DNA of 64,000 nucleotides. It comes from Chionoecetes opilio (lineage: Eukaryota > Arthropoda > Malacostraca > Decapoda > Majidae). A program made the translations under genes and the position numbers. The notes below the pieces were generated by a model, which had not been told where the DNA came from, did no database searches, and saw only the letters and a list, made by a program, of their open reading frames with translations. Below, piece by piece: positions 12,731 to 44,328 of the stretch (its first letter is position 1; each line of letters opens with the position of its first letter). The stretch covers positions 65,001 through 129,000 of the forward strand of contig JACEEZ010017899.1 in the NCBI GenBank assembly GCA_016584305.1, read 5' to 3'.

Positions 12731-12892
12731 GACCGCAACGGCGACACCAACCTGATCTACGCGGCGCGGGGTGGTCACCGCGCGGTGGTGGAGGCACTCT
12801 TAAAGAAGTACGCCGACATAGATATTGTGGGCAAGGAACGGAAGACTGCACTGTACTGGGCCGTGGAGAAAGGCCATACCTCTGTTGTCAAG
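12731..12892 (+). CDS. Kidins220: Kidins220 coding exon 5: ankyrin repeats
   Basis: 54 codons, phase 0 to 0. [20 protein letters not shown], then [19 protein letters not shown] and [17 protein letters not shown] and ALYWAVEKG are family signatures. The donor is AAG|GTGGGT. The last 15 exonic bases and this donor are the seed of the tandem array that fills the next 1.5 kb. Confidence 0.97.
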
Positions 12893-14420
12893 GTGGGTTT
12901 TCATCTAGTTGTATTCATCTAGTTGTATTCATCTAGTTGTATATACTACCTCTGTTGTCAAGGTGTGTTTTCATCTAGTTGTATTCATCTAGTTGTATAT
13001 ACCTCTGTTGTCAAGGTGGGTTTTCATCTAGTTGTATTCATCTAGTTGTATATACCTCTGTTGTCAAGGTGTGTTTTCATCTAGTTGTATTCATCTAGTT
13101 GTATATACCTCTGTTGTCAAGGTGTGTTTTCATCTAGTTGTATTCATCTAGTTGTATATACCTCTGTTGTCAAGGTGGGTTTCATCTAGTTGTATTCATC
13201 TAGTTGTATATACCTCTGTTGTCAAGGTGGGTTTTCATCGAGTTGTATTCATCTAGTTGTATATACCTCTGTTGTCAAGGTGGGTTTTCATCTAGTTGTA
13301 TATACCTCTGTTGTCAAGGTGTGTTTTCATCTAGTTGTATTCATCTAGTTGTATATACCTCTGTTGTCAAGGTGTGTTTTCATCTAGTTGTATTCATCTA
13401 GTTGTATATACCTCTGTTGTCAAGGTGGGTTTTCATCGAGTTGTATTCATCTAGTTGTATATACCTCTGTTGTCAAGGTGGGTTTTCATCTAGTTGTATT
13501 CATCTAGTTGTATATACCTCTGTTGTCAAGGTGGGTTTTCATCGAGTTGTATTCATCTAGTTGTATATACCTCTGTTGTCAAGGTGGGTTTTCATCTAGT
13601 TGTATTCATCTAGTTGTATACTCCTCTTTGTCAAGGTGGGTTTTTCATCGAGTTGTATTCATCTAGTTGTATATACCTCTGTTGTCAAGGTGTGTTTTCA
13701 TCTAGTTGTATTCATCTAGTTGTATATACCTCTGTTGTCAAGGTGTGTTTTCATCTAGTTGTATTCATCTAGTTGTATATACCTCTGTTGTCAAGGTGTG
13801 TTTTCATCTAGTTGTATTCATCTAGTTGTATATACCTCTGTTTCAAGGTGGGTTTTCATCGAGTTGTATTCATCTAGTTGTATATACCTCTGTTGTCAAG
13901 GTGTGTTTTACAATCGAGTTGTATTCATCTAGTTGTATTCATCTAGTTGTATATACCTCTGTTGTAAAGTGGGTTTTCATCGAGTTGTATTCATCTAGTT
14001 GTATATACCTCTGTTGTCAAGGTGGTTTTCATCTAGTTGATGATTCCTTAGTTTTGTATATACCTCTTGTTCAGGTGGGTTTCATCTAGTTGTATTCATC
14101 TAGTTGTATTCATCTAGTGTACTCATTAGTTGTATATACCTCTGTTGTCCAAGGTGGTTTCAATCTAGTTGTATTCATCTAGTTGTATATACCTCTGTTG
14201 TCAAGGTGGGTTTTCATCTAGTTGTATTCATCTAGTTGTATATACCTCGTTGTCAAGGTGGTTTTCATCTATTGTACTCATTAGTTGTATATACCTCTGT
14301 TGTCAAGGTGGTTTTCATCTAGTTGTACTCATCTAGTTGTATATACCTCTGTTGTCAAGGTGGTTTTCATCTAGTTGTATTCATCTAGTGTATATACCTC
14401 ATGTGCAGGTGTTTTTCATC
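12878..14420 (+). repeat. Minisatellite made from the exon 5 / intron 5 junction
   Basis: Unit about 53 bp: ACCTCTGTTGTCAAG (exon 5 end) + GTGGGT or GTGTGT (donor) + TTTCATCTAGTTGTATTCAT + CTAGTTGTATAT. After the real junction I count about 28 further copies, perfect to slightly altered; from about 13620 small indels multiply. Each copy brings a potential 5' splice site. Confidence 0.96.
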
Positions 14421-15599
14421 GATTTGATATCTTTCTGTATTTATTTGTTGAATTGTATTTGTTTTTCCTAACGTTCGTCTCCATATATACATTTTATTTG
14501 TCTATTTTCCTTCGGCTTGTTCTCCGAAGCCACCACCCCGGGAGGCGGGTCACAAACCTTCCCCTAACACCCGGTTAATACACAGTGTGTGTGTGTGTGT
14601 GTGTGTGTGTTCTATCTTGTCCTAGATACTTGTCATACCACCTGTCATACCACTTGTCATACCACTTGTCATACCACCTGTCATACCACCTGTCATACCA
14701 CTTGTCAAACCACCTGTCATACCACCTGTCATACCACCTGTCATACCACTTGTCATACCACCTGTCATACCACTTGTCATACCACCTGTCATACCACTTG
14801 TCATACCACCTGTCATACCATTTGTCATACCACTTGTCATACCACCTGTCATACCACCTGTCATACCACTTGTCATACCACTTGTCATACCACTTGTCAT
14901 ACCACTTGTCATACCACCTGTCATACCACCTGTCATACCACTTGTCATACCACTTGTCATACCACCTGTCATACCACTTACTCCTGTGGTTCTGTCTCTG
15001 TATCTATAGTCATCGAGTTCTTCTTTCAATTGACGTAGATTTCCTGCTATTTACTATCACCTCTTTCTAGTCCATGCCAAATGCCTTACTAACTACTCAC
15101 TCTCTAGTTCAGTCAGTCAGTCAGTCATTCAGTCATCTCAACACTCACCCACTCACTCCCCCACTCTTTAAGTCAGACAGTCAGTCAGTCACTCACTCCA
15201 TAGGTCACTCAAACACTCTTTTGATCAGTCACTCAACCACTCACTCCCCCCCCCCCCCCCAAGTGCTACTGCTCTTTTGGTTAGCCAGTCAGTCAGTCAC
15301 TCATTTCTTAGATCAGTCAGTCAGTCAGTCACTCATTTCTTAGATCAGTCAGTCAGTCAGTCAGTCATTTCTTTGATCAGTCAGTCAGTCAGTCAATCAG
15401 TCAGTCATTTCTTAGATCAGTCAGTCAATCAGTCAGTCATTTCTTAGATCAGTCAGTCAGTCCAGTCAGTCACTCATTTCTTAGATCAGTCAGTTAATCA
15501 GTCACTCACCCACCTCAACACCCACTCACTCACCCCTTAGAACAGTCAGTTATTCACCCATACTCATCCACTAATTCCCTCCCTCCCCCCCCGCCCCAG
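14421..15599. repeat. Intron 5 second half: three arrays
   Basis: (GT)n at 14585-14611; about 29 copies of a 12-mer TGTCATACCACC/TTGTCATACCAC at 14627-14985; then from about 15108 to 15530 a CAGT-based minisatellite (AGTCAGTCACTCATTTCTTA with GATC) up to the exon 6 acceptor region. 14421-14584 is unique-looking sequence. Confidence 0.9.
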
Positions 15600-15785
15600 G
15601 TGCTGCTGGGCGCCAACCCTGGTCTGGAGCACAGCACCAAGGAGGGGGACACCTGCCTGCTGCGTGCTGTGCGGAACAAGAACGCCGAGGTGGTGCAGCT
15701 GCTCATCGAGAAGAAGGTCAAGGTGAACGTAGTGGACCGCAAGGGTGACACCGCACTCCACATAGCCATGCGGGGGCGGACCAAG
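15600..15785 (+). CDS. Kidins220: Kidins220 coding exon 6: ankyrin repeats
   Basis: 62 codons, phase 0 to 0. VLLGANPGLEHSTKEGDTCL, LLRAVRNKNAEVVQLLIEKK and DRKGDTALHIAMRGRTK correspond to the repeat ending KKGDTPLHIAIRGR in vertebrates. The acceptor is GCCCCAG after a C-run and the donor AAG|GTGGGT. The final 54 bases are copied once in the following intron (15878-15931). Confidence 0.96.
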
Positions 15786-15877
15786 GTGGGTGTGTGGGTG
15801 TGTGGGTGTGTGTGTGTTTGTGTGTGTGGGTGGGTGTTTGTGTGTGTGTGTGGGTGTTTGTGGGGGTGGGGGTGTGT

Positions 15878-15931
15878 GTGGACCGCAAGGGTGACACCGC
15901 ACTCCACATAGCCATGCGCGGGCGGATCAAG
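15878..15931 (+). repeat. Copy of exon 6 3' edge with donor
   Basis: 54 bases matching 15732-15785 at 52 positions, followed by GTGGGG. It translates to VDRKGDTALHIAMRGRIK. Use of this donor would add 146 nt (frame-shifting), so it is a decoy or a minor site. Confidence 0.95.
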
Positions 15932-15959
15932 GTGGGGGTGTGGGTGTGGGGTGGGTGGG

Positions 15960-16047
<88 letters not shown>

Positions 16048-16381
16048 ATGGGACAGAGAAAGTAAGGTTGTGTCCCTCGTTGAAGAAATTCGCTCTATGA
16101 AAATATCAGAGATACGCGTTAAATGTAATAAATTGTACCAAAATCCACTTACTACTGTGTCAAAAATCGCAGTCACACACTAATTTCTTCTTAAATTTAA
16201 AACAATCAGTCAGAAAATCAATGAGAAAATAGGATTCATTCAATATTTGTTGTGGCAAGATTTTCTAGGAACGAAAAAAAAAAAAAAAAAAAAAAATTGT
16301 GGGTTACGAGAAATGAGTGTACCAGCATATTTGTCCTCCACTTGTATCCCTCCACCTCATCCACTTGCCTCCACCCCCCAG
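15932..16381. repeat. (GA)n and intron 6 remainder
   Basis: (GA)n at 15964-16044, AT-rich sequence, a poly-A at 16275-16296, then a C-rich acceptor region. Confidence 0.85.
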
Positions 16382-16514
16382 AGGATAGTGGAGATCCTGC
16401 TGCGTAACCCCAAGAACAGTCAGCTTCTCTACCGCCCCAACCGCGACCTCGAGACCCCCTACAACATCGACCTCTCCCACCAGAAGACCATCCTGGGACA
16501 GATATTTGGTGCTC
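16382..16514 (+). CDS. Kidins220: Kidins220 coding exon 7: end of ankyrin domain
   Basis: 133 nt, phase 0 in, phase 1 out (GCT C|GTAAGT). [20 protein letters not shown] and [20 protein letters not shown] match the [24 protein letters not shown] region that joins the ankyrin domain to the KAP domain in vertebrates. Confidence 0.96.
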
Positions 16515-17416
16515 GTAAGTACTCTTGTGTTTTCTGATAGTAGATATAAGTACTTTTTTGCATATTCAGATAGACATAACTACTGACATATCAGAGTATG
16601 TAAGATAGTAGTACGTATTTGATCAGATAGAGTACTATGTACATTTAGATAAAAAGTAATAGATTAGTACGTATTTTTGCACATTCAGATAGACGTAACT
16701 ACTGTACATATTCAGATAATAGATAGTAGATAGATAGTAGTACTGTATTTTTGCACATTCAGATAGACGTTAAGTACTGTACATATTCATAATAGATGTA
16801 ATTACCCATAGTCACGTAGATGTAAGTACTGTATTCACATTAATTTATCTCGGCATAAATATTTTGTCTCACTTTTGACCTTGCATTTACGTATATTTAC
16901 GATTTCTCTGCGCATTCAGGCTCATCTACTTTTGTATTCGTATTACGTAATTTATCTTCGCGTTGATGTTCGGCGCTTATTGACCTAGTCGTTCTGTATA
17001 TTTGATTTATTCTTCACTATCTAACTAAATTATTCTATTAAACCATTCCACTAAAAATTAAAAAAAAAAAAAAAAAAAAAAATCTAATATCATCTATTTT
17101 TATATTCACATTAAATTCTCTTTGCATTCATATAGTGTCACTTTATTTACCTTGCTTTTCCTTGTAGTTATAATATCCCCCTTCACTTTCTTGTATCATC
17201 TATTTTATAGTCACATCATTTGACCTCACCGACCTCTCATCCTCGCCCCAGGTCGCCTCAACAATATTTTTTTCCATTTACTTCCCCACATCCATGCATA
17301 AAAAACCTATTTCACACACTCACATAGTCTAACAAAGCCTCAAACTCACTCCTTTATCACCACCACCTAGTTTGACCTCACCTGACCTCACCTGACCTCT
17401 CTCCCCATCACCCCAG
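16515..17416. other. Intron 7: degenerate array and a false exon 8 acceptor
   Basis: 16545-16830 holds four to five diverged units with GCACATTCAGATAGACGTAA and ACTGTACATATTCA. At 17243-17263 CCTCGCCCCAG plus GTCGCCTCAACA repeats the true exon 8 junction 165 bp early; the frame closes at ATATTTTTT. Confidence 0.8.
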
Positions 17417-17581
17417 GTCGCCTCAACACCAACGAGGACAATGAGAACATGCTTGGCTATGACCTCTACTCCTCCTCGCTGGCGGACATCCTCAGCGAGC
17501 CCTCCCTCTCCATGCCTATCTCAGTGGGTCTCTACGCCAAGTGGGGCTCCGGCAAGTCCTTCCTCATACGCAAACTCAAGG
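17417..17581 (+). CDS. Kidins220: Kidins220 coding exon 8: KAP NTPase Walker A
   Basis: 165 nt, phase 1 to 1. Carries [19 protein letters not shown] and the P-loop [12 protein letters not shown] (Walker A, GxxGxGKS type), the nucleotide-binding start of the KAP P-loop NTPase. The acceptor is CACCCCAG. The same acceptor with 12 exonic bases is repeated upstream at 17243-17263. Donor GTGAGA. Confidence 0.97.
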
Positions 17582-17629
17582 GTGAGAAAAGGATGTTGTT
17601 GATAATACATAATGTGTTTTTGAACCCTT

Positions 17630-18716
17630 AAATAACCCTTATAATTAATAACCTTTACCATAAATACCCTTAAAATAAAAAAAAAAAAATAACCTTATAA
17701 CCTTATAACCCTTATATACCCTTGACCTTAAATAACCCTTGATAACCCTTAAATAACCCTTATAACCTTAAAATCCTTATAACCACTTGAAACCTTAACT
17801 CACCCTTGATAACCCTTAAATAACCCTTTATCCTTGATAACCCTTAAATAACCCTTGACACCTAATAACCCTGATAACCTTAAATCACCCTTGTAACCCT
17901 TCAATATCCTTAACCTTGATAACCTTAATAACCTCGACTAACCTTGATAACCCCTATAATACCTTGCATACCCTAATAACCTTGATAACCCTTAAATACC
18001 CTGATCCCCTAATAACCCTAATAACCAACTTAAAAATGAAACGCCTTGTAACCCTTAATACCCTGATAACCCTTAAATAACCTTGATAACCCTTAAATAC
18101 CCTTGATACCCTTAAATACCCTTGTAACCCTTAATAACCCTGATAACCCTTAAATACCCTTGATAACCCTTGATAACCTTAAACTAACCCGTGATAACCC
18201 TTAAATACCTTGATAACCTGATAATTAATAACTTGATTCCTTAATACGCTTAAATAACCCTTATAACCTTAAATAACCCTTGATAACCCTTAAATAACCC
18301 TTGATAACCCTTAAAACCTTAAAACCCTTGATAACCCTTGATAACCCTTAAATAACCCTTGATAACCCTTGATAACCCTTGATAACCCTTAAATAACCCT
18401 TAAATAACCCTTGGTAACCCTTAAATAACCCTTAAATAACCCTTGATAACCCTTAAATAACCCTTAAATAACCCTTGATAACCCTTAAATAACCCTTGAT
18501 AACCATGGATAACCCTTGATAACCTTAAATAACCCTTGATAACCCTTAAATAACCCTTGATAACCCTTAAATAACCATGGATAACCCTTGATAACCCTTA
18601 AATAACCCTTGATAAACCCTTAAATAACCCTTGATAACTCTTAAATAACCCTTGATAACCCTTGATAACCCTTGATAACCCTTAAATAACCCTTGATAAC
18701 CCTTAAATAACCCTTG
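17630..18716. repeat. AACCCTTAAATAACCCTTGAT minisatellite (intron 8)
   Basis: Alternating AACCCTTAAAT and AACCCTTGAT units over 1.1 kb, indel-rich at 17860-18250 and regular after 18260. The same units form a second array in intron 9. Confidence 0.93.
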
Positions 18717-19213
<497 letters not shown>

Positions 19214-19421
19214 AGGAGATGGGGAGCTTCGCCAAGCAGTGGGTGGAGCCGCACTTCCAGATCTCCTTCTTGGCCATACTGTTGGTGCTGCATCTGGCCC
19301 TGCTGGGGGGGCTAATCGCCGCAGTGCCCTCATTTAGTCTCATTGTGGGCCTGGCGGTGGGCGGGGGCGTCTTCATACTACTCACATTCCTACTCTTCAT
19401 TATTAGTCACGGATCTAGAAG
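19214..19421 (+). CDS. Kidins220: Kidins220 coding exon 9: membrane segments 1 and 2
   Basis: 208 nt, phase 1 in, phase 2 out. After EEMGSFAKQWVEPHFQ come two hydrophobic spans, one starting ISFLAILLVLHLALL and one starting LIVGLAVGGGVFILL, separated by about five residues: the first transmembrane hairpin inserted in KAP NTPases. It ends SHGSRR. The pyrimidine tract upstream is (CT)n plus poly-C. The donor is AAG|GTGTGTG, inside a GT run. Confidence 0.95.
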
Positions 19422-20421
19422 GTGTGTGTGTGTTTATTTACCTAGTTGTGATATACGGGGCGTGAGTTACACGGGTGGGGTCCCGTCTCCATGTCTGAAT
19501 GGGTCAATCTTAGCTTTAACCCCTTGACCTCACTCGACCTCTTGATAACCCTTAAATAACCCTTGATAACCCTTGATAACCATTGATAACTCTTGATAAC
19601 CCTTGATAACCCTTGATAACCCTTAAATAACCCTTAAATAACCCTTGATAAACCTTAAATAACCCTTGATAACCCTTAAATAACCCTTAAATAACCCTTG
19701 ATAAACCTTAAATAACCCTTGATAACCCTTAAATAACCCTTAAATAACCCTTGATAAACCTTAAATAACCCTTGATAACCCTTAAATAACCCTTAAATAA
19801 CCCTTGATAAACCTTAAATAACCCTTGATAACCCTTAAATAACCCTTGACGTAATTCTAACCAGAACGTAATTTCCATTGTAATTTGTGTACCATTAGAC
19901 GATTTTAGTGACTATAAGCAATGTTTTATAGCTATGACCTGTTTAGTATCCTTTACCCACTAACTACTGTGGTATATTCAGTGACTTTTCGTTATTTTAT
20001 GGCTAACAACAGACAATTTCATATAGCCAAGGAAAGATCTGGGCGTGAAGGGGTTAAAAACATGAATCTTTTGGCCTCTATAATATCACTGTCCAAGCTA
20101 GTCCACCTATCAATGCAACTATAAGAAAAACTGTACTTCTTGATGTCCTTTAAGCACCTTGTCTTCTTAAGCTTCTTCGTATGACCTCTTGTGGCTCCTA
20201 TGTCCCGTACAGACATGTCCTCTTTGTCATCTCTCTTCATTCCTGACATAGCTCTATGCCTTGCTATCAAGTACGTTTACATTTACAAATTACATTTTTA
20301 CAGATTCAGAAAAATATTATGTCGTGTTTTTTACTACCAAGTTATGGTTTTTTTTCGATTTCCGTTTATTACTTCCACTCATCTATTCCACTTTTACCAC
20401 CTCCACCTTTCCTCCACACAG
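19422..20421. other. Intron 9: LINE-tail-like piece, array and MITE
   Basis: 19428-19515 is a CTAGTTGTGATATACGGGGC / GGTCCCGTCTCC fragment also seen at 54836-54900 and, inverted, at 47826-47875. 19540-19853 is the AACCCTTGAT/AACCCTTAAAT array again. A MITE follows (separate entry). 20058-20410 shows nothing recognised. Confidence 0.75.
19859..20057 (+). mobile_element. MITE family C, copy 1
   Basis: AGAACGTAATTTCCATTGTA ... GATCTGGGCGTGAAGGGGTT; nearly collinear with 35505-35706. The left end (TAACCCCTTGAGGCC in copy 2) is altered here, where it merges with the AACCCTTGA array. Confidence 0.75.
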
Positions 20422-20568
20422 GTATGAGTGGAACGTGTGGCACCGGTGGAGTGTGGCGTTGGAGAAGCAGATGTCGGCCTTCAAGCTGGTCATGCAGGTG
20501 GTCTTCTGCTCCCCACCCGGCGCCCAGAGGAAGGACTGGAAGGACGGCGTGCAGGCAAGGCCCCTCAA
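20422..20568 (+). CDS. Kidins220: Kidins220 coding exon 10: KAP domain between hairpins
   Basis: 147 nt, phase 2 to 2. YEWNVWHRWSVALEKQMSAF and KLVMQVVFCSPPGAQRKDWK align with the [31 protein letters not shown] stretch of vertebrates. Acceptor CCACACAG, donor CTCAA|GTGAGT. Its 3' edge has a diverged copy at 21986-22020 whose differences are almost all synonymous. Confidence 0.94.
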
Positions 20569-20589
20569 GTGAGTGGCTCTATTTTGTAG

Positions 20590-21925
20590 TGTTCAGTGTT
20601 AGTCTAGGTTTTTTCTGGGTATTTTCTGGGTATTTTTCTGGGTATTTTGTAGTGTTGAGTAAAATTTTTGTCTGTTTTTTTTTGTAGGTATTTTCTGGGT
20701 ATTTTTCTGGGTATTTTTCTGGGTATTTTGTAGTGTTGAGTAAAATTTTAGTCTAGTTTTTTTGTAGGTATTTTCTGGGTATTTTTCTGGGTATTTTTCT
20801 GGGTATTTTGTAGTGTTGAGTGTTAGTCTAGTTATTTTGTAGGTATTTTCTGGGTATTTTGTAGTTTTGAGTATTAGTCTAGTTTTTTTGTAGGTATTTT
20901 CTGGGTATTTTTCTGGGTATTTTGTAGTGTTGAGTGTTAGTCTAGTTTTTTTGTAGGTATTTTCTGGGTATTTGTAGTTTTGAGTATTATCTAGTTTTTT
21001 TGTAGGTATTTTCTGGTATTTTTTGGGTATTTTGTAGTGAGTGTTAGTCTAGTTCTTTTGTAGGTATTTTCTGGGTTTTTTTCTGGTATTTTGTAGTGTT
21101 GAGTGTTAGTCTAGTTCTTTTGTAGGTATTTTCTGGGTATTTTTCTGGGTATTTTGTAGTGTTGAGTGTTAGTCTAGTTCTTTTGTAGGTATTTTCTGGT
21201 ATTTTGTAGTTTTGAGTATTAATCTAGTTTTTTTGTAGGTATTTTCTGGTATTTTTCTGGGTATTTTGTATGTTGATGTTAGTCTATTTTTTGTAGGTAT
21301 TTTCTGGTGTTTGTAGGGTTGAGTGTTAGTTAGTTTTTTTTAGGTTTTTCTGGTTTTTTGGTATTTTGTAGTGTTGAGTGTTAGTCTAGTTCTTTTGTAG
21401 GTATTTTCTGGTATTTTCTGGGTATTTGTAGTGTTGAGTGTTAGTCTAGTTCTTTTGTAGATTTTCTGGTATTTTCTGGTATTATGTAGTGTGAGTGTTA
21501 GTCCCAGTTCTTTTGTAGGTATTTCTGGGTATTTTCTGGTATTTTTAGTGTGAGTTTAGTCTAGTTCTTTTGTAGGTATTTTCTGGGTATTTTTCTGGGT
21601 ATTTTGTAGTGTTGAGTGTTAGTCTAGTTCTTTTGTAGGTATTTTCTGGGTATTTTTCTGGGTATTTTGTAGTGTTGAGTGTTAGTCTAGTTCTTTTGTA
21701 GGTATTTTCTGGGTATTTTTCTGGGTATTTTGTAGTGTTGAGTGTAGTCTAGTTCTTATGTAGGTATTTCTCGGTATTTTCTGGTATTTTGTATGTTGAG
21801 TGTAGTCTAGTTCTTTTGTAGGTATTTTCTGGGTATTTTTCTGGGTATTTTGTAGTGTTGAGTGTTAGTCTAGTTCTTTTGTAGGTATTTTCTGGGTATT
21901 TTTCTGGGTATTTCTTCTAGTGTTC
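20590..21925. repeat. Minisatellite derived from the start of intron 10
   Basis: Unit about 75 bp: GTATTTTGTAGTGTTGAGTG, TTAGTCTAGTTCTTTTGTAG, GTATTTTCTGGGTATTTTTC. The first unit starts 20 bp after the exon 10 donor. Indels concentrate at 20990-21560. Confidence 0.93.
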
Positions 21926-21985
21926 TTGTATTTTTTTTTTAACATTTTTTAACAACTTTTATTTTTTTATTTTATTTTATTATTT

Positions 21986-22020
21986 TGACGGGAAAGACGG
22001 TGTTCAAGCGCGACCCCTCA
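21986..22020 (+). repeat. Diverged copy of exon 10 3' edge with GTGAGT donor
   Basis: 35 bases, 27 identical to 20534-20568, then GTGAGT. In frame it reads D-G-K-D-G-V-Q-A-R-P-L against D-W-K-D-G-V-Q-A-R-P-L: six changed codons are synonymous and one is not. The following 90 bp also resemble the start of intron 10. No convincing acceptor precedes it. Confidence 0.9.
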
Positions 22021-22290
22021 AGTGAGTTATTTTTTTTTTTTTTTACTGTAGTGTTAAGTAGCATTCTAGGTGTTTTCAAGGTATTTTCTAGGTATATATA
22101 GGTTATAGGTATTTTTATTGTACACTGGAAACTCTCTATAACGGAATAATACAGGTAACCCACTTTCTGATACGGACTATACAACTTTTTTTCAATAATT
22201 TTGCTCTTCTTTCTATTTTCGGTTCCAATTTTGATATAGTGAGTAGGTAAGTTTAACCAGCCCATAGCCCCCCCCTTCTCCCCCCCCCCC

Positions 22291-22987
22291 GAAGGTTCAT
22301 TTTCGCGGAGGGGGCCTCTCATCTAACCTAACCTAACCTAACCTAACCTAGCCTAGCCTAGCCTAGCCTAGCCTAGCCTAACCTAACCTAACCTAGCCTA
22401 GCCTAGCCTAGCCTAGCCTAGCCTAGCCTAGCCTAGCCTAGCCTAGCCTAGCCTAACCCTAACCTAAACAAACCATCAATACCTCCTCCTTCCCTTATAG
22501 CCTCCTTTGTATTCCTTTGTATTTATATAACATCCCGTAACCTTTATCCCCCCCCCCCAAAGGTTTATTTTCGCGGAGGGGGCCTCTCATCTAACCTAAC
22601 CTAACCTAACCTAACCTAACCTAACCTAACCTAACCTAACCTAACCTAACCTAACCTAACCTAACCAAAACAAACCACCAATACCTCCTCCTTTCCTTAT
22701 AACCTCCTTTGTATTCCTTTGTATTTATGTAACACACTCGTAACCTTTGTCCCCCCCCCCCCCCCCCAAGGTTCATTTTCGCGGAGGGAGCTTCTCATCT
22801 AACCTAACCTAACCTAACCTAACCAAACCACCAATACCTCCTCCTTCCCTAATAACCTCCTTTGTATTCCTTTGTAACACCCCGTAATCTTTGTCCCCCC
22901 CCCCCCCCCAAAGGTTAATTTTCGCGGAGGGGGCCTCTCATCTAACCTAACCTAACCTAACCTAACCTAACCTAACCTAACCTAACC
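22291..22987. repeat. (CCTAA)n telomere-type tracts with exon 11 edge copies
   Basis: Four units of 140-270 bp. Each has poly-C, AAG, then GTTCATTTTCGCGGAGGG (exon 11 start; copies from 22295, 22563, 22771, 22914), CCTCTCATCTAACC, a run of CCTAA pentamers (with CCTAG variants at 22351-22450), and ACCAATACCTCCTCCTTCC. The true exon at 23086 is the fifth. Confidence 0.93.
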
Positions 22988-23085
22988 AAAACAAACCACC
23001 AATACCTCCTCCTTCCCTTATAACCTCCTTTGTATTCCTTTGTATTTATATAACACCCCGTAACCTTTATCCCCCCCACCCCAAG

Positions 23086-23234
23086 GTTCATCTTCGCGGA
23101 GGGGGCCAAGCCAAGCAGCACGTCGGCGGGGGAGAACTCGGTGGTGCAGATGCTGGGCTCGCTCTTCGACATGGTGGAGCGCGAGTACGGCATGTTCTCC
23201 ACAAGGTTCTACCGCGCGTTTAGACCCAAAGCAC
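23086..23234 (+). CDS. Kidins220: Kidins220 coding exon 11: KAP domain
   Basis: 149 nt, phase 2 in, phase 1 out. FIFAEGAKPSSTSAGENSVV, MLGSLFDMVEREYGMFSTRF and YRAFRPKA match the RFLFTDYNRLSS...CEREFGFLATRLFRVFK segment. The acceptor is the unusual CCCCAAG. Four upstream copies of this acceptor plus exon start lie at 22291-22934; only this copy continues into open coding sequence. Donor GTGAGT. Confidence 0.93.
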
Positions 23235-23559
23235 GTGAGTATCTGTTCTTCATTGACGCTGTATGTTCTCTTCTTCATTGACGCTGTATGTTGAAAGTCC
23301 TGTAAAACTGTCCCTACCTATTTTCAATTTTTTCTCTCATTTTTTATCTCGTTCTCTCACAATCCTCATTTTTATTTATGAATTTCTACTTAAAAAAATA
23401 TTTATTATGAATTTCTTTCTTTTCCCTGTACTTAAATCTTTGTCACTCTCTCTTCACTTTTTTAATCAAATTTTTAATCAAGAGTATTTGTTCTTAATTG
23501 TCTCCGAATGTTGAAAGTCCTGTAAAAATGTCCCTGTCTTACCTATCACCCATCATGTC

Positions 23560-24598: not shown

Positions 24599-24607
24599 CA
24601 CCTTCAG

Positions 24608-26230: not shown

Positions 26231-26241
26231 CCCCCCCACAG

Positions 26242-32602: not shown

Positions 32603-33134
<532 letters not shown>

Positions 33135-33724: not shown

Positions 33725-33989
33725 TATATTATTTTGATATGACAGAAGAGTGTGAAGAGATTTTGAGATGCATGGAGACGTTGACATGAGCTTAGGATAT
33801 GACTACTGTATGACTGACTATGACTGACTATGACTGACTGACTATTGTATTGACTATTGTATGTACTGACGCTACGACACAATAGCCGAAAAGTGTGATT
33901 AGGGATTTAAGGATAAGGATTTTAGCTATATGTCAATTTAATATTAATACTTTATTTATGATTCACATAGCATTCATATAACATCCTAT

Positions 33990-34650
33990 CATATAGTGTA
34001 ACCTATTTCCCGTCCCCCTTCAGACCCTATAGTAGTATGACCTATTTTTCTCACTATGACCTATTTTACTTGCTATGACGACCTATTTACCCTTCCTTCA
34101 AACCTCAAAATAGTATGACCTATTTTCCTTATGACCTATCTCCCTCGCTATGACCTATTTTCCCTCCCGTCAGATCCCCAAAATAGTATGACCTATCTCC
34201 CTCGCTATGACCTATTTTCCTCCCAGTCAGATCCCCAAAATAGTATGACCTATTTTCTTAGTATGACCGATCTCCCTCGCTATGACCTATTTTCCCTCCC
34301 GTCAGATCCCAAAAGTATACATTTTTCTATACCATCCCCCGCTATGACCTTTTTCCCTCCGCGATCCCAAATAGTATGACTTTCCATTATGACGTCTCCC
34401 TCACTATGACCTATTTACCCTCCCGTCAGATCCCCAAAATAGTATGACCTATTATTCTCATTATGACCTATCTCCCTCGCTATGACCTATTTTTCCTTCC
34501 TTCAGATCCCAAAGTAGTTATGACCCATCTACCTCACTATAACCTATTTTCTACCCCTTCAAACCTCAAAGAAATATAACCTATCTCCCTCCTTATGACC
34601 TATCTTCCTCACTATGACCTATCTCCCTCGCTATGACCTATTCTCCCCCC
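33990..34650. repeat. Minisatellite carrying exon 18 acceptor motif
   Basis: Units contain TCCCTCCCGTCAGATCCCC, AAAATAGTATGACCTAT and CTCCCTCGCTATGACC. Acceptor-like CCCGTCAG|ATCCC or close variants occur near 34168, 34228, 34300, 34427 and 34504 before the true junction at 34656/34657. Indel-rich at 34310-34390. Confidence 0.9.
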
Positions 34651-34656
34651 CGTCAG

Positions 34657-34824
34657 ATCCCCGCCAACCGCCGCCTGTCCTCCGAGAGCGGCCTCAGTGC
34701 CTCACAAAATCTCCGCCGCAACAACAGCAAGACTAGCCGCCGCAACCTCAAGCCTTCGGACTCCATCGCCTCAAGCATAGGCTCTAACCTGAACAGGGTC
34801 GGCGGCGCTCAGGATCTCACCAAG
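34657..34824 (+). CDS. Kidins220: Kidins220 coding exon 18: Ser/Arg-rich linker
   Basis: 56 codons, phase 0 to 0. IPANRRLSSESGLSASQNLR, RNNSKTSRRNLKPSDSIASS, then IGSNLNRVGGAQDLTK. DLTK joins VLLTDDYFSDI of the next exon as in vertebrate [15 protein letters not shown]. Basic and Ser-rich, so a possible kinase target (RRLSS). The acceptor CCCGTCAG with ATCCCC is repeated several times upstream. Confidence 0.92.
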
Positions 34825-34959
34825 GTAAACACACACACACTTGTAATATAGTCATGAAAGAAGGAATAGTGTGAGGCTCCAATAACCTTATATAGAAGAG
34901 GAAGAAGATATTAGAAGAAAGTAAACAAACACACAGCCCTACATTTGTTGCAGTCAATG

Positions 34960-35410
34960 TTTTTACCCTTATTTAATTGTATCAGTTAATTTTTTTGACC
35001 CTTATTCAGTTGTTTCGGTCACTGTTTTTATCCTTATTCAGTTGTTTCGGTCAAAGTTTTTACCCTTATTCAGTTGTTTCGGTCAAAGTTTTTACCCTTA
35101 TTCAGTTGTTTCGGTCAAAGTTTTTACCCTTATTCAGTTGTTTCAGTCACTGTTTTTATCCTTATTCAGTTGTTTCGGTCAAAGTTTTTACCCTTATTCA
35201 GTTGTTTCGGTCAAAGTTTTTACCCTTATTCAGTTGTTTCGGTCAAAGTTTTTACCCTTATTCATTGTTTCGGTCAAAGTTTTTACCCTTATTCAGTTGT
35301 TTCGGTCAAAGTTTTTACCCTTATTCATTGTTTCAGTCAAAGTTTTTACCCTTATTCAGTTGTTTCAGTCAGTTTTTACCCTTATTCAGTTGTTTCAGTC
35401 AAAGTTTTCA
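34960..35410. repeat. 32-bp minisatellite, intron 18
   Basis: About 14 copies of TTTTTACCCTTATTCAGTTG plus TTTCGGTCAAAG, some with CAGTCACTG. Confidence 0.95.
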
Positions 35411-35497
35411 GTCAAAGGCCTTCTTTCTTCTTCTTCTTTCTGTTTAACGTCAGATTTTCCCGTAATGTCTTGTTAGGTTAGACGGCCAGTGAGACGC

Positions 35498-35708
35498 TTA
35501 ACCCCTTGAGGCCCAGAACGTAATTTCCATTGTAATTTGTGTACCATTAGACAATTTTTAGTGACTACAAGCAATGTTTTATAGCTATGACCTGTTTAGT
35601 ATCCTTATCCACTAACTAATTTGGTATATTCAGTGACTTTTTCTAATTTTATGGCTCCACAACAGACATTTTATATAGTGAAGGAAAGATCTGGGCGTGA
35701 AGGGGTTA
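35498..35708 (+). mobile_element. MITE family C, copy 2 (complete)
   Basis: Ends TTAACCCCTTGAGGCCCAG and CTGGGCGTGAAGGGGTTA are inverted repeats. 211 bp. A third, inverted fragment with the same end lies at 38288-38362. Confidence 0.8.
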
Positions 35709-35874
35709 GAGGTAAACACACTGCCACACCCGCATTCACTTGTTGCTGCATGTATTGTTCTAGCGTAGTAATTTCTTTGTGCACTTCCATAGGTTAGGTG
35801 GCTTCCCATATTGTTTCTTCCTGACCAATATTTTTCTAGTTACTTTATCTGCAAGTTGTTGTTTTTTCCTTATA

Positions 35875-36009
35875 CAGTAAAACCTTATATTGGGACTAAT
35901 TGGGCCAAGGAGTGGTGTCCGAGTAATGCAAGGATCCGAATAATGGGGGGATATGTAAAAAAAAAAAAAAAAAAAATCGAGGTGTATAGGATAAGTAGGA
36001 AATTCGACC

Positions 36010-36048
<39 letters not shown>

Positions 36049-36229
36049 CTAGGTGTAGGTATAGATAGCTAGGAAATTTCGACCCCTTAAAAAAAAAAAA
36101 AAAAAAAAAAAAAATTCTAGGTGTATATATAGCTAAGAAATTTCGACACCCCCCCCCCAAAAAAAAAGAGGCGGTTCGAATAATGTCAAAGTCCGAATAA
36201 TGAGGGTCCGAATACGAGAGGTTTTACTG
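35875..36229 (-). mobile_element. MITE family A, copy 3 (inverted)
   Basis: Reverse-complement orientation: starts CAGTAAAACCTTATATTGGG and ends ATACGAGAGGTTTTACTG, flanked by TA on both sides. A-runs replace the T-runs of the other copies. Confidence 0.82.
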
Positions 36230-36369
36230 TATTATTAATTTTGTTTTTGCTATTTTTCCTTTGATCCTTTATGTTTCCGTCCTAGAGTTAGTTTTCTCAT
36301 CCATAACAAATAGTTCGTCATTGCTTTGTGTTGTCATTTTCTAACCGTCTCACCTGTGTTTCCCTTCAG

Positions 36370-36452
36370 GTGTTGTTGACGGACGATTACTTCAGCGACA
36401 TCAACCCTCGGTCCATGCGGAGACTCATGAATGTGGTCTACATCACGGGCAG
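36370..36452 (+). CDS. Kidins220: Kidins220 coding exon 19: KAP domain
   Basis: 83 nt, phase 0 in, phase 2 out. VLLTDDYFSDINPRSMRRLM then NVVYITGR; matches [28 protein letters not shown]. Acceptor CCCTTCAG, donor AG|GTGAGT. Confidence 0.96.
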
Positions 36453-36770
36453 GTGAGTGACGCGCCCCTTACTCACCAACACCTCAACCTTCAACTTTTG
36501 ACTCACCTCTTAATCATCAACAATTTTTGACTCACCACTTCTCAATCATCAACAACTTCACTTATCTCTTCACAATATCATCATTCATATCCCCTTCACA
36601 CATCCACATAGTCATTCCACTTGTCCCTCCACTAATACATGACTTAAATATTCCTCCACACCTCCAGATACTCATGTCCCTCCACTTACACATCATTTAA
36701 ATCTCCTCCACACATCAGCATTCCTCCATCTTCTCCACCTTCCCCTCACATCACCTTCTTATTTCCTCCA

Positions 36771-36965
36771 CTCCCCAGGTTACTCAAGGCCTTCCACTTA
36801 TCCTTCCACTAATACATGAGTTAAATCTTCCTCCACACCTCCACACCCTCACTCCACCTTCCTTCCACTCCCCAGGTTACTCAAGGCATTCCACATCGAC
36901 TTTATTCCTCCACACATCACCACACTCACTCCACCAGGTTACTCAAGACATTCCACATATCCTTC
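36771..36965 (+). repeat. Three copies of exon 20 5' edge with acceptors
   Basis: CCCCAG|GTTACTCAAGGCCTTCCAC (from 36779), CCCCAG|GTTACTCAAGGCATTCCAC then ATCGACTTT (from 36876), and CACCAG|GTTACTCAAGACATTCCAC (from 36938). The true exon starts at 37029 with ATTACTCAAGTTCTTCCAC. Spacers share TCCTCCACACATC and CACTCCACCTTCC. Confidence 0.93.
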
Positions 36966-37028
36966 CACTAATACATAAATTAAATCTCCCTCCACACACA
37001 CTCACTCCACCTTCCCTCCACTCCACAG

Positions 37029-37190
37029 ATTACTCAAGTTCTTCCACATAGACTTCAACTGGTACCACCTTGCGTCGTGGATCAACATTACGGAGCAGTG
37101 GCCTTACCGCGCCTCTTGGCTCATCCTCTACTACGAGGCCCACGAGGAGGTGCTGGAGGAGAAGACCTCACTGAAGGACCTCTACGAAAA
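37029..37190 (+). CDS. Kidins220: Kidins220 coding exon 20: KAP domain
   Basis: 162 nt, phase 2 to 2. LLKFFHIDFNWYHLASWINI, TEQWPYRASWLILYYEAHEE, VLEEKTSLKDLYEK. LASWIN.TEQWPYR.SWLILY is the most conserved string of the family. Acceptor CTCCACAG. Three shorter copies of the exon start, each behind its own AG, lie at 36771-36960. Donor AA|GTGAGT. Confidence 0.97.
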
Positions 37191-37904
37191 GTGAGTGTGG
37201 GGAGAGAGGAAGGAAAGAGGAATGGGTGGCTTTATAGGAGTAGGAGTAGGAGGAGGAATGGGTAATATTAAAGTAAGTAGGAGTAGAAAAAGGAGTGAAG
37301 AGATAGATAGAGAGGGAAGGAGGGAGATAGAGAGGAGATAGGAGAAATACATAGGAGATAAAGAGGAAGGGAGAAGGAGTGGTGGGTATTAAAGGCTAGA
37401 GGATAGATAGAGAGGAAGGAAGGAAGGAGGTGTGGGTGGTCTTAATAGGTGGGAATACATGGGAATGCATAGGAAGAATGGAGGAGGAGGAAGAGGAGGG
37501 GGTTGACTTTAAAGGATGTAGGAGTCTGTCTCTCTGTCTCTCTGTCTCTCTGTCTCTCTGTCTCTCTGTCTCTCTGTCTCTTTGTCTCTGTCTCTCTGTC
37601 TCTCTGTCTCTCTGTCTCTCTGTCTCTCTGTCTCTCTGTATCTCTGTCTCTCTGTCTCTCTGTCTCTCTGTCTCTCTGTCTCTGTCTCTCTGTCTCTCTG
37701 TCTCTTTGTCTCTCTGTCTCTCTGTCTCTCTGTCTCTCTGTCTCTCTGTCTCTCTGTCTCTCTGTCTCTCTGTCTCCTTGTCTCTCTGTCTCTCTGTCTC
37801 TCTGTCTCTTTTTCTCCTCTCTACGACTGTTCAGATTGCTTTTTCTATTGTCTCACTGTGTCTAATCAATGTCTATATCTCTCTCTCTCTCTCCGTCACC
37901 CCAG
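37191..37904. repeat. Intron 20: GA-rich then (TCTCTCTG)n
   Basis: Purine-rich AGGAGATAGAGAGG sequence at 37200-37500, then (CTCTCTGT)n at 37528-37815. Long Ser/Leu/Cys/Val frames here are repeat artefacts. Confidence 0.93.
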
Positions 37905-38073
37905 AATCAAGAACCAGGTGCCCATCTCCAAGGACATGGACCCCCTGCTGGAGATGGACAAGGAGGAGAAGAAGTTTGAGATTTTCCTCTCCATGCACAA
38001 GAACTCCCTCCACATCTCAGACCTCAAAGTGTTCCTGCCCTTCACCATCAACCTCGACCCCTTCATTAGAAAG
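37905..38073 (+). CDS. Kidins220: Kidins220 coding exon 21: end of KAP domain
   Basis: 169 nt, phase 2 in, phase 0 out. IKNQVPISKDMDPLLEMDKE, KKFEIFLSMHKNSLHISDLK, VFLPFTINLDPFIRK; corresponds to [20 protein letters not shown]...KVFLPCTVNLDPKLRE. Acceptor TCACCCCAG, donor AAG|GTGCGC. Confidence 0.96.
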
Positions 38074-38414
38074 GTGCGCCCCGTCATCATCACCATCATC
38101 ATCACCGTCATCATCACCGTCATCATCATCATTTATTATTAATTATTGTCGTTGCTGTCACTATCTTCTATCATTAACAGTGTCGTCATCATCACCATCA
38201 TCATTAATTATCCCGCCCTTCACTATTTTCTGTCATCATTACCATCATCATTAATTATCATCGTTGCTGTCATTATCATCGCCATCATTAACCCCTTCAC
38301 GCCCAGATCTTTCCTTTGCTATATAAAATTGTCTGTTCTTAGTCATAAAATTACGAATAAGTAACTTAATACATCATCATTACCATCATTAAGGTTATCA
38401 TCACGGTCACTATC

Positions 38415-39585
38415 TTCATTTTTATTAGTGTCGTAGTCATTTTTATTAGTGTCGTAGTCATTTTTATTAGTGTCGTAGTCATTTTTATTAGTGTCGTAGT
38501 CATTTTTATTAGTGTCTTAGTCATTTTTATTAGTGTCGTAGTCATTTTTATTAGTGTCGTAGTCATTTTTATTAGTGTCGTAGTCATTTTTATTAGTGTC
38601 GTAGTCATTTTTATTAGTGTCGTAGTCATTTTTATTAGTGTCGTAGTCATTTTTATTAGTGTCGTAGTCATTTTTATTAGTGTCGTAGTCATTTTTATTA
38701 GTGTCGTAGTCATTTTTATTAGTGTCGTAGTCATTTTTATTAGTGTCGTAGTCATTTTTATTAGTGTCGTAGTCATTTTTATTAGTGTCGTAGTCATTTT
38801 TATTAGTGTCGTAGTCATTTTTATTAGTGTCGTAGTCATTTTTATTAGTGTCGTAGTAATTTTTATTAGTGTCGTAGTAATTTTTATTAGTGTCGTAGTC
38901 ATTTTTATTAGTGTAGTCATTTTTATTAGTGTCGTAGTCATTTTTATTAGTGTCGTAGTAATTTTTATTAGTGTCGTAGTACTTTTTATTAGTGTCGTAG
39001 TACTTTTTATTAGTGTCGTAGTCATTTTTATTAGTGTCGTAGTCATTTTTATTAGTGTCGTAGTCATTTTTATTAGTGTCGTAGTCATTTTTATTAGTGT
39101 CGTAGTCATTTTTATTAGTGTCGTAGTCATTTTTATTAGTGTCGTAGTCATTTTTATTAGTGTCGTAGTCATTTTTATTAGTGTCGTAGTCATTTTTATT
39201 AGTGTCGTAGTCATTTTTATTAGTGTCGTAGTCATTTTTATTAGTGTCGTAGTCATTTTTATTAGTGTCGTAGTATTTTATAGTGTCGTAGTATTTTATT
39301 AGTGTCGTAGTCATTTTTATTAGTGTCGTAGTCATTTTTATTAGTGTCTAGTCATTTTTATTAGTGTCGTAGTCATTTTTATTAGTGTCGTAGTATTTTT
39401 ATTAGTGTCGTAGTCTTTTTATTAGTGTCGTACTTTTTATTAGTGTCGTAGTCATTTTTATTAGTGTCGTAGTCATTTTTATTAGTGTCGTACTTTTTAT
39501 TAGTGTCGTAGTCATTTTTATTAGTGTCGTAGTCATTTTTATTAGTGTCGTAGTCATTTTTATTAGTGTCGTAGTCATTTTTATC
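38415..39585. repeat. 21-bp minisatellite, intron 21
   Basis: About 55 copies of TTTTTATTAGTGTCGTAGTCA. Since 21 is a multiple of 3, two minus-strand frames stay open (MTTTLIK and YDTNKND repeats). Indels cluster at 39275-39430. (CATCAT)n-rich sequence precedes it at 38085-38290. Confidence 0.97.
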
Positions 39586-39678
39586 AGAAGGAATGAATTA
39601 ATTGTTGAGTAATTAATGAAGTGTCACTCAAAAGTTGTCTTATTCCTGATCCTCACACTCTCCGCCTCTGCTCTCCAG

Positions 39679-39804
39679 GTCATCAAGGAGGACCAGCCAC
39701 AGTTTGAGGAGGGCCACGCCTTCATCCCCCCCTCGGCGCCCTCCCCATGGAGCTTCCAGCCCTACGACACACAGCAAAAGGGTGTCCCCGCTCCTAGAAG
39801 GCCG
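39679..39804 (+). CDS. Kidins220: Kidins220 coding exon 22: Pro-rich linker
   Basis: 42 codons, phase 0 to 0. VIKEDQPQFEEGHAFIPPSA, PSPWSFQPYDTQQKGVPAPR, RP. Vertebrate KIDINS220 has a Pro-rich stretch at this place. Supported by acceptor CTCTCCAG, donor CCG|GTGAGT, phase and high G+C against its AT-rich surroundings. Confidence 0.88.
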
Positions 39805-39829
39805 GTGAGTGGCTAGACCTACGGCATTC

Positions 39830-40370
39830 CTTGTTTTCTTTATATACGTCATAAACTCCTACGTCATTTATCATTTTATTTATTTATGTCATAACCTCCT
39901 ACGTCATTTTTTGTTTTCTTTATTTACGTCATAAACTCCTACGTCATTTTTTGTTTTCTTTATTTACGTCATAAACTCCTACGTCATTTTTTGTTTTCTT
40001 TATTTACGTCATAAACTCCTGCGTCATTTTTTGTTTTCTTTATTTACGTCATAAACTCCTACGTCATTTTTTGTTTTCTTTATTTACGTCATAAACTCCT
40101 AAGTCATTTTTTGTTTTCTTTATTTACGTCATAAACTCCTACGTCATTTTTGTTTTCTTTATTTACGTCATAAACTCCTACGTCATTTTTTGTTTTCTTT
40201 ATTTACGTCATAAACTCCTACGTCATTTTTTGTTTTCTTTATTTACGTCATAAACTCCTACGTCATTTTTTGTTTTCTTTATTTACGTCATAAACTCCTA
40301 CGTCATTTTTTGTTTTCTTTATTTACGTCATAAACTCCTACGTCATTTTTTATTTTCCTTATTTACGCCA
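39830..40370. repeat. 40-bp minisatellite, intron 22
   Basis: About 13 copies of AAACTCCTACGTCATTTTTT plus GTTTTCTTTATTTACGTCAT, starting some 25 bp after the exon 22 donor. Confidence 0.95.
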
Positions 40371-41207
40371 TAAGGGAGTGACCAGGGGCAAAACAACACT
40401 GCTAAAGGGCATACAAAGTCACTTCATATGTCACTTCATTCGTATTCTCTGCTGAGGGAAAGTGAGACAATATACATGTAGAAAAAATAGTTATAGATTT
40501 AGAGTTGAAAAGAGAAATTAGGTCCCGTAAATAAAAGTATAAGTAGTGTTTGTTAGGTTTAGCTTTAAAATAGATAGTATAAATAAATATAGTCTGCAAA
40601 TCACTCTTATATATACAGCCAAATTCCCAACATCCGACCTCCAAACATCCGACTTGTCCAAACAACCGACTTTTTTCACCACCACATTGTGTCTTGTTTT
40701 GGCCATTTATTTGACTTAGTTTTTTAAAGTTATTAGTAAACATTGATTTGTGGCTTTATTTATGCATGAATTTTACTTTCGCGTCTACCACTGGATCGGC
40801 CTTCAAGAGCTGCATCTTTTATGTTCTATACCATTTTGTCCTTACGTTTATGGTTACTGTGATATCCGAACATCCGACTATTCCAATTATCCGACCTACC
40901 TTCGGTCCCCCTAAGGTCGGATAATTAATACTTACCTGTAGGTTCTTTAGAGTTCTTTTATGTTTTACTATTTAAGTCGTTTATAATTCTTAGAAGCAAA
41001 AATAATCTTCTATCTTATAATATTTCAGGTTCATTTCTTCTCAGATTTATTTCTTCACAGGTTTATTTCTTCTCTCTATAACAAATCAACGACTTCCTTC
41101 AATCTACCAGTACATATTTTGTTCTATCTACAGTTATGATTTAAATGAACATGGTGTATAATCCAGTCCTATGTTTTAAATCAACCTTTATTCCCCCCTC
41201 CCTACAG
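40371..41207. other. Rest of intron 22
   Basis: AT-rich. 40618-40930 has CATCCGAC/ATCCGACC motifs at both ends (AACATCCGACCTCC near 40629, AAGGTCGGATAATT near 40913), suggesting a degraded inverted-repeat element. Nothing coding seen. Confidence 0.4.
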
Positions 41208-41393
41208 CCTATGCGAGCCAACCAGAAGAACTCCACCGCCAGCCTGCCCCCCCTCAACCCCATGATGTGGGGTTACGGCCCCCCCCACACCTACCTCCCA
41301 TCCATACAGTCCGCCCCCTCCGTAGACTACAGCCACGGACCCATCACGGTGAACCCTGTGGCCGGATTCAGCCCTCCCCACCCCAGCCTGCCC
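41208..41393 (+). CDS. Kidins220: Kidins220 coding exon 23: Pro-rich linker
   Basis: 62 codons, phase 0 to 0. PMRANQKNSTASLPPLNPMM, WGYGPPHTYLPSIQSAPSVD, YSHGPITVNPVAGFSPPHPS, LP. Same composition as the PPLPLHEGPP..SGYSQPPS segment of vertebrates, with no close alignment. Acceptor CCCTACAG, donor CCC|GTGAGT, followed within 8 nt by a (TAC)n array. Confidence 0.88.
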
Positions 41394-42442
<1,049 letters not shown>

Positions 42443-42616
42443 CCCGAGGCGGCGGACAAGCGTCTCTCCACCCTGAGTGTGGAGGGGCTGTTTGAGGTGT
42501 TCAGCAAGGTGGAGGGCGTGGTGGCCGCCAAGCTGCCCGCCTACAAGGAACGGCTCCACGAACACAACATTAACGGCAAGGTGCTCCTCCACTGCGACCT
42601 CGACGACTTGAAGAAG
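42443..42616 (+). CDS. Kidins220: Kidins220 coding exon 24: SAM-like region, first part
   Basis: 58 codons, phase 0 to 0. LSTLSVEGLFEVFSKVEGVV, AAKLPAYKERLHEHNINGKV, LLHCDLDDLKK; matches LNVDAVCEKLKQIEGLDQSML...ANINGRVLAQCNIDELKKEM, the helical SAM-like repeat near the KIM. Acceptor CCACCCACAG, donor AAG|GTGGGT. A copy of its last 26 bases lies 1.5 kb downstream. Confidence 0.96.
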
Positions 42617-42624
42617 GTGGGTGT

Positions 42625-44000
42625 GTGTAGTTATAGTTATAGTCAGTTATAGTTATAGTTATAGTCAGTTATAGTTATAGTTATAGTCAGTTATAGTTAT
42701 AGTCAGTTATAGTTATAGTCAGTTATAGTTATAGTTATTGTCAGTTATAGTTATAGTTATAGTCAGTTATAGTTATAGTTATAGTCAGTTATAGTTATAG
42801 TTATAGTCAGTTATAGTTATAGTTATTGTCAGTTATAGTTATAGTTATAGTCAGTTATAGTTATAGTCAGTTATAGTTATAGTTATAGTTATAGTCAGTT
42901 ATAGTTATAGTTATAGTCAGTTATAGTTATAGTTATAGTCAGTTATAGTTATAGTTATTGTCAGTTATAGTTATAGTTATAGTCAGTTATAGTTATAGTT
43001 ATAGTCAGTTATAGTTATAGTTATAGTCAGTTATAGTTATAGTCAGTTATAGTTATAGTTATAGTTATAGTCAGTTATAGTTATAGTTATAGTCAGTTAT
43101 AGTTATAGTTATAGTCAGTTATAGTTATAGTTATAGTCAGTTATAGTTATAGTCAGTTATAGTTATAGTTATTGTCAGTTATAGTTATAGTTATAGTCAG
43201 TTATAGTTATAGTTATAGTCAGTTATAGTTATAGTTATAGTCAGTTATAGTTATAGTTATAGTCAGTTATAGTTATAGTTATAGTCAGTTATAGTTATAG
43301 TCAGTTATAGTTATAGTTATAGTCAGTTATAGTTATAGTTATAGTCAGTTATAGTTATAGTTATAGTCAGTTATAGTTATAGTTATAGTTATAGTCAGTT
43401 ATAGTTATAGTTATAGTCAGTTATAGTTATAGTTATAGTCAGTTATAGTTATAGTTATAGTCAATTATAGTTATAGTTATAGTTATAGTCAGTTATAGTT
43501 ATAGTTATAGTTATAGTTATAGTCAGTTATAGTTATAGTTATAGTCAGTTATAGTTATAGTTATAGTCAGTTATAGTTATAGTTATAGTCAGTTATAGTT
43601 ATAGTTATAGTCAGTTATAGTTATAGTTATAGTCAGTTATAGTTATAGTCAGTTATAGTTATAGTTATAGTCAGTTATAGTTATAGTTATAGTCAGTTAT
43701 AGTTATAGTTATTGTCAGTTATAGTTATAGTTAGTCAGTTATAGTTATAGTTATAGTCAGTTATAGTTATAGTTATAGTCAGTTATAGTTATAGTTATAG
43801 TTATAGTTATAGTTATAGTCAGTTATAGTTATAGTTATAGTTATAGTTATAGTTATAGTTATAGTTATAGTCAGTTATAGTTATAGTTATAGTTAGTTAT
43901 AGTTATAGTTATAGTCAGTTATAGTATAGTTATAGTCAGTTATAGTTATAGTTATAGTCAGTTATAGTTATAGTTATAGTCACTTATAGTTATAATAAAA
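42625..44000. repeat. AGTTATAGTTATAGTC array, intron 24
   Basis: 1.37 kb of (AGTTAT)n punctuated by AGTCAGTT, units of 16, 22 and 28 bp, very homogeneous. It begins about 20 bp after the exon 24 donor. Confidence 0.97.
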
Positions 44001-44123
44001 ATTATGAAAAAAAAAAAATGTGAGTTTTTTTTTTTTTTTTTTTTTTTCATAATTAATTTTTTGGTTTTGTCTTGTCAACCAGCAGATTTTTTTTTTTTTT
44101 TTTTTTTGTCATGATTATTTTTT

Positions 44124-44149
44124 ACTGCGATCTGGACGACTTGAAGAAG
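44124..44149 (+). repeat. Copy of exon 24 3' edge with donor
   Basis: ACTGCGATCTGGACGACTTG then AAGAAG and GTGGGA. It matches ACTGCGACCTCGACGACTTG of the exon; the two differences are synonymous (Asp GAC/GAT, Leu CTC/CTG). Reads C-D-L-D-D-L-K-K. Confidence 0.93.
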
Positions 44150-44328
44150 GTGGGAAGGGAGGGTGTGAGGGCTGGGTTGTTATTAAGTATATATAATTTT
44201 TATATATATATATTTTTTTTTTTTTGTCAACCCAATTATTTTTTTGTGTGAGGGAAGTTCTGGTGTGAGGTTTTTTTTTCCAGCCGTTTTGTCTTTTTTT
44301 GTCATTATTATTTTTTGGTGTGTCTTTT

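Follow-up and report, generated by a model that had tools for sequence, protein, structure and literature searches.

We describe here the copying of exon edges into introns within a gene for Kidins220/ARMS that occupies most of a 64,000-nucleotide stretch of the snow crab (Chionoecetes opilio) genome, referred to below as the window. Nine of 47 exon edges searched with BLASTN in microsatellite-masked introns are present again in the adjacent intron together with the splice site, and the count is nine of 50 when the downstream edges are included. We propose, with a probability of about 0.84, that the copies arose where ordinary local tandem duplication, by which minisatellites are born and expand in these repeat-saturated introns, overhung an exon. 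An earlier account of this DNA, the sequence-only reading, had listed nine copied edges in at least eight introns, with 6–54 bases of exon in the copies; all nine are recovered by both unmasked and masked searches, and the range of exonic reach is the same.

The copies have a simple geometry. When the 47 edges were compared with all 24 introns under masking, 42 alignments to adjacent introns were obtained, these coming from nine edges, and all 42 are direct; there were no inverted copies and none in the intron at the opposite end of the exon, and the single non-adjacent match is weak and includes 6 exonic nucleotides (nt). The nine edges sit in eight introns, and the copies span the splice site with between 6 (exon 18) and 54 (exon 6) exonic nt. 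In the unmasked comparison with the adjacent intron, the best E-value per edge is weakest at exon 24 (about 1e-7) and strongest at exon 14 (1e-27). Chance similarity is rejected, as 20 intron sets shuffled in two-base units and searched on the direct strand yield no adjacent direct match. Reverse-strand or dispersed, transposon-like copying is likewise rejected for the introns searched, the copies being direct and adjacent. Six weak matches in the unmasked search at three other edges (one at A6, two at A13, and three at D17) were dropped because they are C-rich or GTCT-rich low-complexity sequence with no match after masking. The exon 2 donor was omitted from the 47-edge search and is included in the 48-junction tests of coverage and placement, and the edges D25, A26, and D26, which lie after position 46000, have no copies.

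Table 1. Coordinates of the copied exon edges and of the gene that contains them (positions of the window; exonic nt, nucleotides of exon included in the copy)
Feature	Position	Strand	Remark
Exon 5 3' edge (last 17 nt, 12876-12892) and array of ~53-bp units with edge and donor	12876..14400	+	26 intronic alignments
Exon 6 3' edge, source of copy, 54 nt	15732..15785	+	BLASTN
Exon 6 3' edge, intronic copy with donor and GT-rich intron start	15878..15961	+	79/85 identical
Exon 8 5' edge, intronic copy (12 exonic nt) with acceptor	17213..17263	+	original exon start 17417
Exon 10 3' edge, diverged intronic copy (35 exonic nt aligned) with donor	21987..22089	+	original exon end 20568
Exon 11 5' edge, four intronic copies (21-22 exonic nt) with acceptor	22273..22935	+	original exon start 23086
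Exon 14 3' edge, first intronic copy (43 exonic nt) with donor	27031..27129	+	exon end 26925; decoy 27073
Exon 14 3' edge, second intronic copy (42 exonic nt) with donor	27271..27361	+	BLASTN
Exon 18 5' edge, array (6 exonic nt, ATCCCC) with acceptor	34117..34435	+	original exon start 34657
Exon 20 5' edge, array (at most 37 exonic nt) with acceptor	36624..36974	+	original exon start 37029
Exon 24 3' edge, intronic copy (26 exonic nt) with donor	44124..44154	+	~1.5 kb from exon end 42616
Kidins220/ARMS gene	4659..54302	+	25 exons hand-modelled; exon 26 near 54195-54302

The copied edges differ in how far they have been multiplied (Table 1). At exon 5 the copies form a head-to-tail array of near-identical units in which the exact sequence GTTGTCAAG^GT occurs at 22 sites, although the number of units is insecure. 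Exons 6, 8, 10, and 24 have one copy each and are thus duplications rather than arrays. The exon 24 copy lies beyond an array of the TTATAG/TCAG type and extends just 5 nt past the splice site. At four of the donor edges (exons 6, 10, 14, and 24) the sequence ahead of the copies is GT-rich or T-rich. The copy numbers given in the sequence-only reading hold for exons 6, 8, 10, and 24 (one each), exon 14 (two), and exon 11 (four), and its exon numbering agrees with our model. Multiple copies are also found at the other three edges, although the figures differ: about 28 had been counted at exon 5, where we find 26 alignments and 22 exact motif sites, about five at exon 18 (three alignments, four motif sites), and three at exon 20 (five alignments, two of them overlapping, and four motif sites). 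We also note that the copies of the exon 11 edge have long (CCTAA)n/(CCTAG)n tracts (22323-22987) between them; TTAGG, the arthropod telomere-type motif, is complementary to (CCTAA)n.

The relationship of the copies to the surrounding repeats was examined in a coverage test, in which a position counts as covered when its intron holds a similar copy of the 60-base segment around it that includes at least six bases on each side. Such a crossing copy exists for 39–46% of 3470 sampled intron positions, depending on which of four score cut-offs is used, and for 5 of 48 junctions at three of the cut-offs and 2 of 48 at the strictest. Within exons a copy was found in 6 of 1024 tests (at one cut-off), and these are in exons 6, 14, and 20, all of which have copied edges. 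Coverage increases from exon to intron: among the 48 junctions it is 0, 1, 3, 5, 6, 7, and 6 at -50, -40, -30, -20, -15, -10, and -5 nt on the exon side, 5, 5, 8, 10, and 15 at 0, 5, 10, 20, and 30 nt, and 17, 17, 18, 17, and 21 at 40, 60, 80, 100, and 150 nt into the intron. The profile has a slight hump at -10 nt (7/48) and does not peak at the splice site. The test detects five of the nine copied edges; exons 6, 11, and 14 are probably missed through masking on the intron side, and exon 24 is missed because its copy extends so little past the junction. Even if all nine are counted, 9/48 (19%) stays under the intron level. Repeats are dense throughout, and Tandem Repeats Finder returns 278 rows, which overlap, across the 64 kb.

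The second test asks how many edges would be reached if the repeat blocks were placed without regard to junctions, and for this the 47 detected blocks were put at random within their own introns, each intron being extended at both ends by 60 nt of exon. Under the stricter rule, in which a block must extend at least 6 nt into the exon and cross the junction, seven edges are observed and 5.0 +/- 1.7 are expected (P 0.18). Several observations weigh against the overhang explanation or narrow its base. Under a laxer rule that requires 6 nt of exon and also counts non-crossing blocks, since masking can prevent crossing, nine edges are observed and 5.3 +/- 1.8 expected (P 0.04). Setting the nine BLASTN edges against the stricter null gives P 0.035 (5.06 +/- 1.73, 5000 runs) or 0.025, values that pit a BLASTN count of nine against a null from a block detector that sees seven and so compare unlike detectors. 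A weak excess at exon edges is therefore possible, at most, and it could also arise from two sources other than targeting, the lighter masking of exon sequence and the slower divergence of pairs in which one member is constrained. Several edges show little or no microhomology at the breakpoints, and all counts come from one gene in one assembly.

We favor the overhang explanation because of what is directly observed: the direct orientation of the copies, their restriction to the adjacent intron, the repeat density, and the gradient across the junction. A tandem duplication whose outer breakpoint fell within an exon, at a depth of between a few and about 50 nt, would keep the exon-attached copy in frame with its splice site, so that splicing would still work and the intron would gain a spare exon edge and splice site. 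Selection would be expected to keep the exon-attached copy and to remove repeats that go deeper or alter the protein, and the short exonic reach of the copies fits the limit expected from such selection. The intronic spares would then be free to drift; in some introns (exons 5, 11, 18, and 20) they may have been multiplied further, and at exons 10 and 24, where they lie 1.4–1.5 kb away behind arrays, they may have been carried off by array growth. The molecular step is presumably slippage or unequal exchange. The copying looks to be lineage-local. At one position of exon 6, the copy and the snow crab exon share an arginine in contrast to the lysine of 8 of 8 other aligned decapods; at exon 10 they share an aspartate, which Petrolisthes has as well, 7 of 8 having glutamate there.

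A competing explanation is a process that preferentially duplicates exon–intron junctions, such as breakage or template switching tied to splice-site sequence or transcription, and the sequence-only reading had inferred a recurrent process of this type. The number of affected edges (9/50) and the fact that random placement reaches the laxer count of nine in just 4% of runs are in its favor. However, junctions are less covered than intron positions, with no peak at the splice site, the stricter comparison, which is like-for-like, shows no significant excess, and the lower P values are uncorrected, come from a single gene, and depend on a block finder that favors unmasked exon sequence. We thus reject targeting of junctions on the coverage test and the stricter placement, with the caveat of the laxer result, and consider such a process unlikely. 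The related proposal that intronic minisatellites are seeded at splice sites survives in part, in that some repeat units do include the splice site, but not in the sense of a process aimed at junctions. Assembly artefact, through false duplication or misjoining of repeats, has a slim chance of accounting for the copies. The assembly has apparent base-level errors in exons 2, 12, and 14, which are partly out of frame and have been carried into the deposited protein, and the copy number of arrays is fragile; yet most copies carry substitutions relative to the exon, at six of the nine edges compared (at exon 10, eight over 36 nt), and the flanks of the copies differ, which together make a simple assembly duplication improbable.

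The copies also place what could be decoy splice sites in the introns, as the sequence-only reading had suggested, and many of them are predicted to be as good as the real site when scored with a matrix derived from the splice sites of this gene. Decoy donors at exon 5 score 4.5–10.5, and mostly 9.8–10.5, against 9.8 for the real donor, and decoy and real donors are equal at exon 14 (10.9 and 10.9) and exon 10 (9.9 and 9.9). Among acceptors, the decoys score 14.0 against 11.6 at exon 8, 12.8–15.3 against 13.4 at exon 11, and 7.7–17.2 against 15.4 at exon 20. The decoys are weaker at exons 6 and 24 (donors, 6.3 against 9.8) and at exon 18 (acceptors, 7.6–11.4 against 13.7). That they are maintained by selection as backup or regulated alternative sites is nonetheless highly improbable, even though so many score level with the real site and the differences between exon and copy lean towards synonymous changes (16 of 22 bases over six edges). 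Splicing at the first exon 5 decoy or at those of exons 6 and 24 would add in-frame stops (the stretch examined at exon 14 ends at 27000, before its decoy at 27073), and the C. opilio protein and seven of eight other aligned decapod proteins have no inserts at the copied junctions. The protein alignment is colinear at the copied edges, except that Homarus has 17 inserted residues at the boundary of exons 14 and 15; this insert is composed of sequence other than the exon 14 edge. In intron 14, a 42-nt stretch (28241-28282), preceded by AG and followed by GT, encodes ALSLHRHHRDPRAM, which loosely resembles the Homarus insert (AVVASRQQKVQRDHRPM) at the same junction, and is possibly a small alternative exon. 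The aligned isoforms of Petrolisthes and Macrobrachium lack exon 17.

The synonymous lean is itself suggestive of coding constraint on the copies but is not robust, with P ranging from 0.0008 to 0.13 according to the mutation model, and from 0.04 to 0.43 when exon 10, which contributes seven synonymous differences of eight, is set aside, and it fades under GC-biased mutation. In this count the four exon 11 copies were pooled by hand, one exon 20 copy was used, and exons 5, 8, and 18 were left out. A further reading, to which we assign little likelihood, is that exon edges in intronic arrays exchange sequence with their copies in both directions and that changes have been written into coding exons in this way. 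Exon 20 (37029-37055) reads RLLKFFHIDF, and RLLKAFHID (the R being completed by exon 19) is what its intronic copy (36876-36902) codes for; an alanine is present at this position in all eight other aligned decapods (RLLKAFHIDF in seven, RLLKAFNIDF in Macrobrachium), such that the copy still has the residue that the exon has lost, and the change from A to F differs at all three codon bases. This and the synonymous lean are what speaks for two-way exchange. Against it, none of the array units viewed by eye has TTC at the exon 20 codon, the synonymous excess depends on the model, and residues specific to the snow crab are not enriched in copied segments (4/78) relative to the rest (44/756) or to uncopied edges (27/367), so that faster protein change at copied edges is not found. 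We regard the exon 20 alanine difference and the synonymous lean as leads only.

The identity of the gene is well supported, with Pfam matches to Kidins220/ARMS domains (ankyrin repeats, KAP P-loop, and SAM_KIDINS220) in five of the six exon translations submitted, and 85–96% identity of the product to four crab Kidins220 proteins, of which the top relative is the deposited C. opilio protein (96%). The 25-exon model was assembled manually with splice sites and reading frames as guides, and the 3' end of exon 2 is uncertain. Exons 2, 12, and 14 are partly out of frame relative to other decapods (8497-8640, 24608-24848, and 26749-26925). The deposited C. opilio protein reproduces the out-of-frame stretches of exons 12 and 14, its exon 2 runs into a TGTCATACCACC repeat, and it contains odd stretches such as AWWWWWMAW and CHTTCHPPV. 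These features make base errors in the assembly at the three exons likely, with the deposited protein partly wrong as a result. The deposited protein ends near window position 46300, and a further conserved exon (GSSRTSSTHSGGGGGKESDAHASIRKATKQNLLAKQ) is present near 54195-54302 (region 46055-54302), so that the deposited model looks truncated; homologous proteins continue past exon 26. A stretch of about 700 bp (CATTGTGAATTGGCTGAAA ... GTGTAGGGGAAGGGACT) is similar, by eye, in two introns (23570-24290 and 44990-45720), with part of it near 25250-25400, and is probably a dispersed repeat. No known RNA elements are present in the window at the Rfam gathering threshold.

The abundance of repeats here is in keeping with the repeat-rich genomes of decapods, which have many satellite families, Chionoecetes opilio included (PMC10454600), although repeats that extend over exon edges are not the topic of that survey in the part of it consulted. 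Titles and abstract beginnings of open-licence papers, among the matches listed, describe no gene-wide pattern of this kind. A 37-bp duplication at a junction of human RHD may be a precedent. The case shows how deeply tandem duplication can extend into exons in a crustacean gene that is saturated with repeats. The spare splice sites left ready-made in its introns might hamper gene prediction and might be a source of variation in splicing. As in minisatellites and intronic variable-number tandem repeats, units are head-to-tail, direct, and local, the exon 5 array with its ~53-bp unit and 26 alignments being the clearest example, but here the unit holds an exon end and a splice site, and several edges of one gene are involved. 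The closest named process that we have found, going by the portion of the source consulted, is intron gain via tandem genomic duplication of AGGT-containing exon segments (PMC3443670), in which local tandem duplication also multiplies splice-site sequence within a gene. No new intron between duplicated AGGT sites is needed in our gene model, and the two differ in their direction: as described in that portion, an exonic segment is duplicated to give rise to a new intron, whereas here exon edges have been copied into an intron that already existed.

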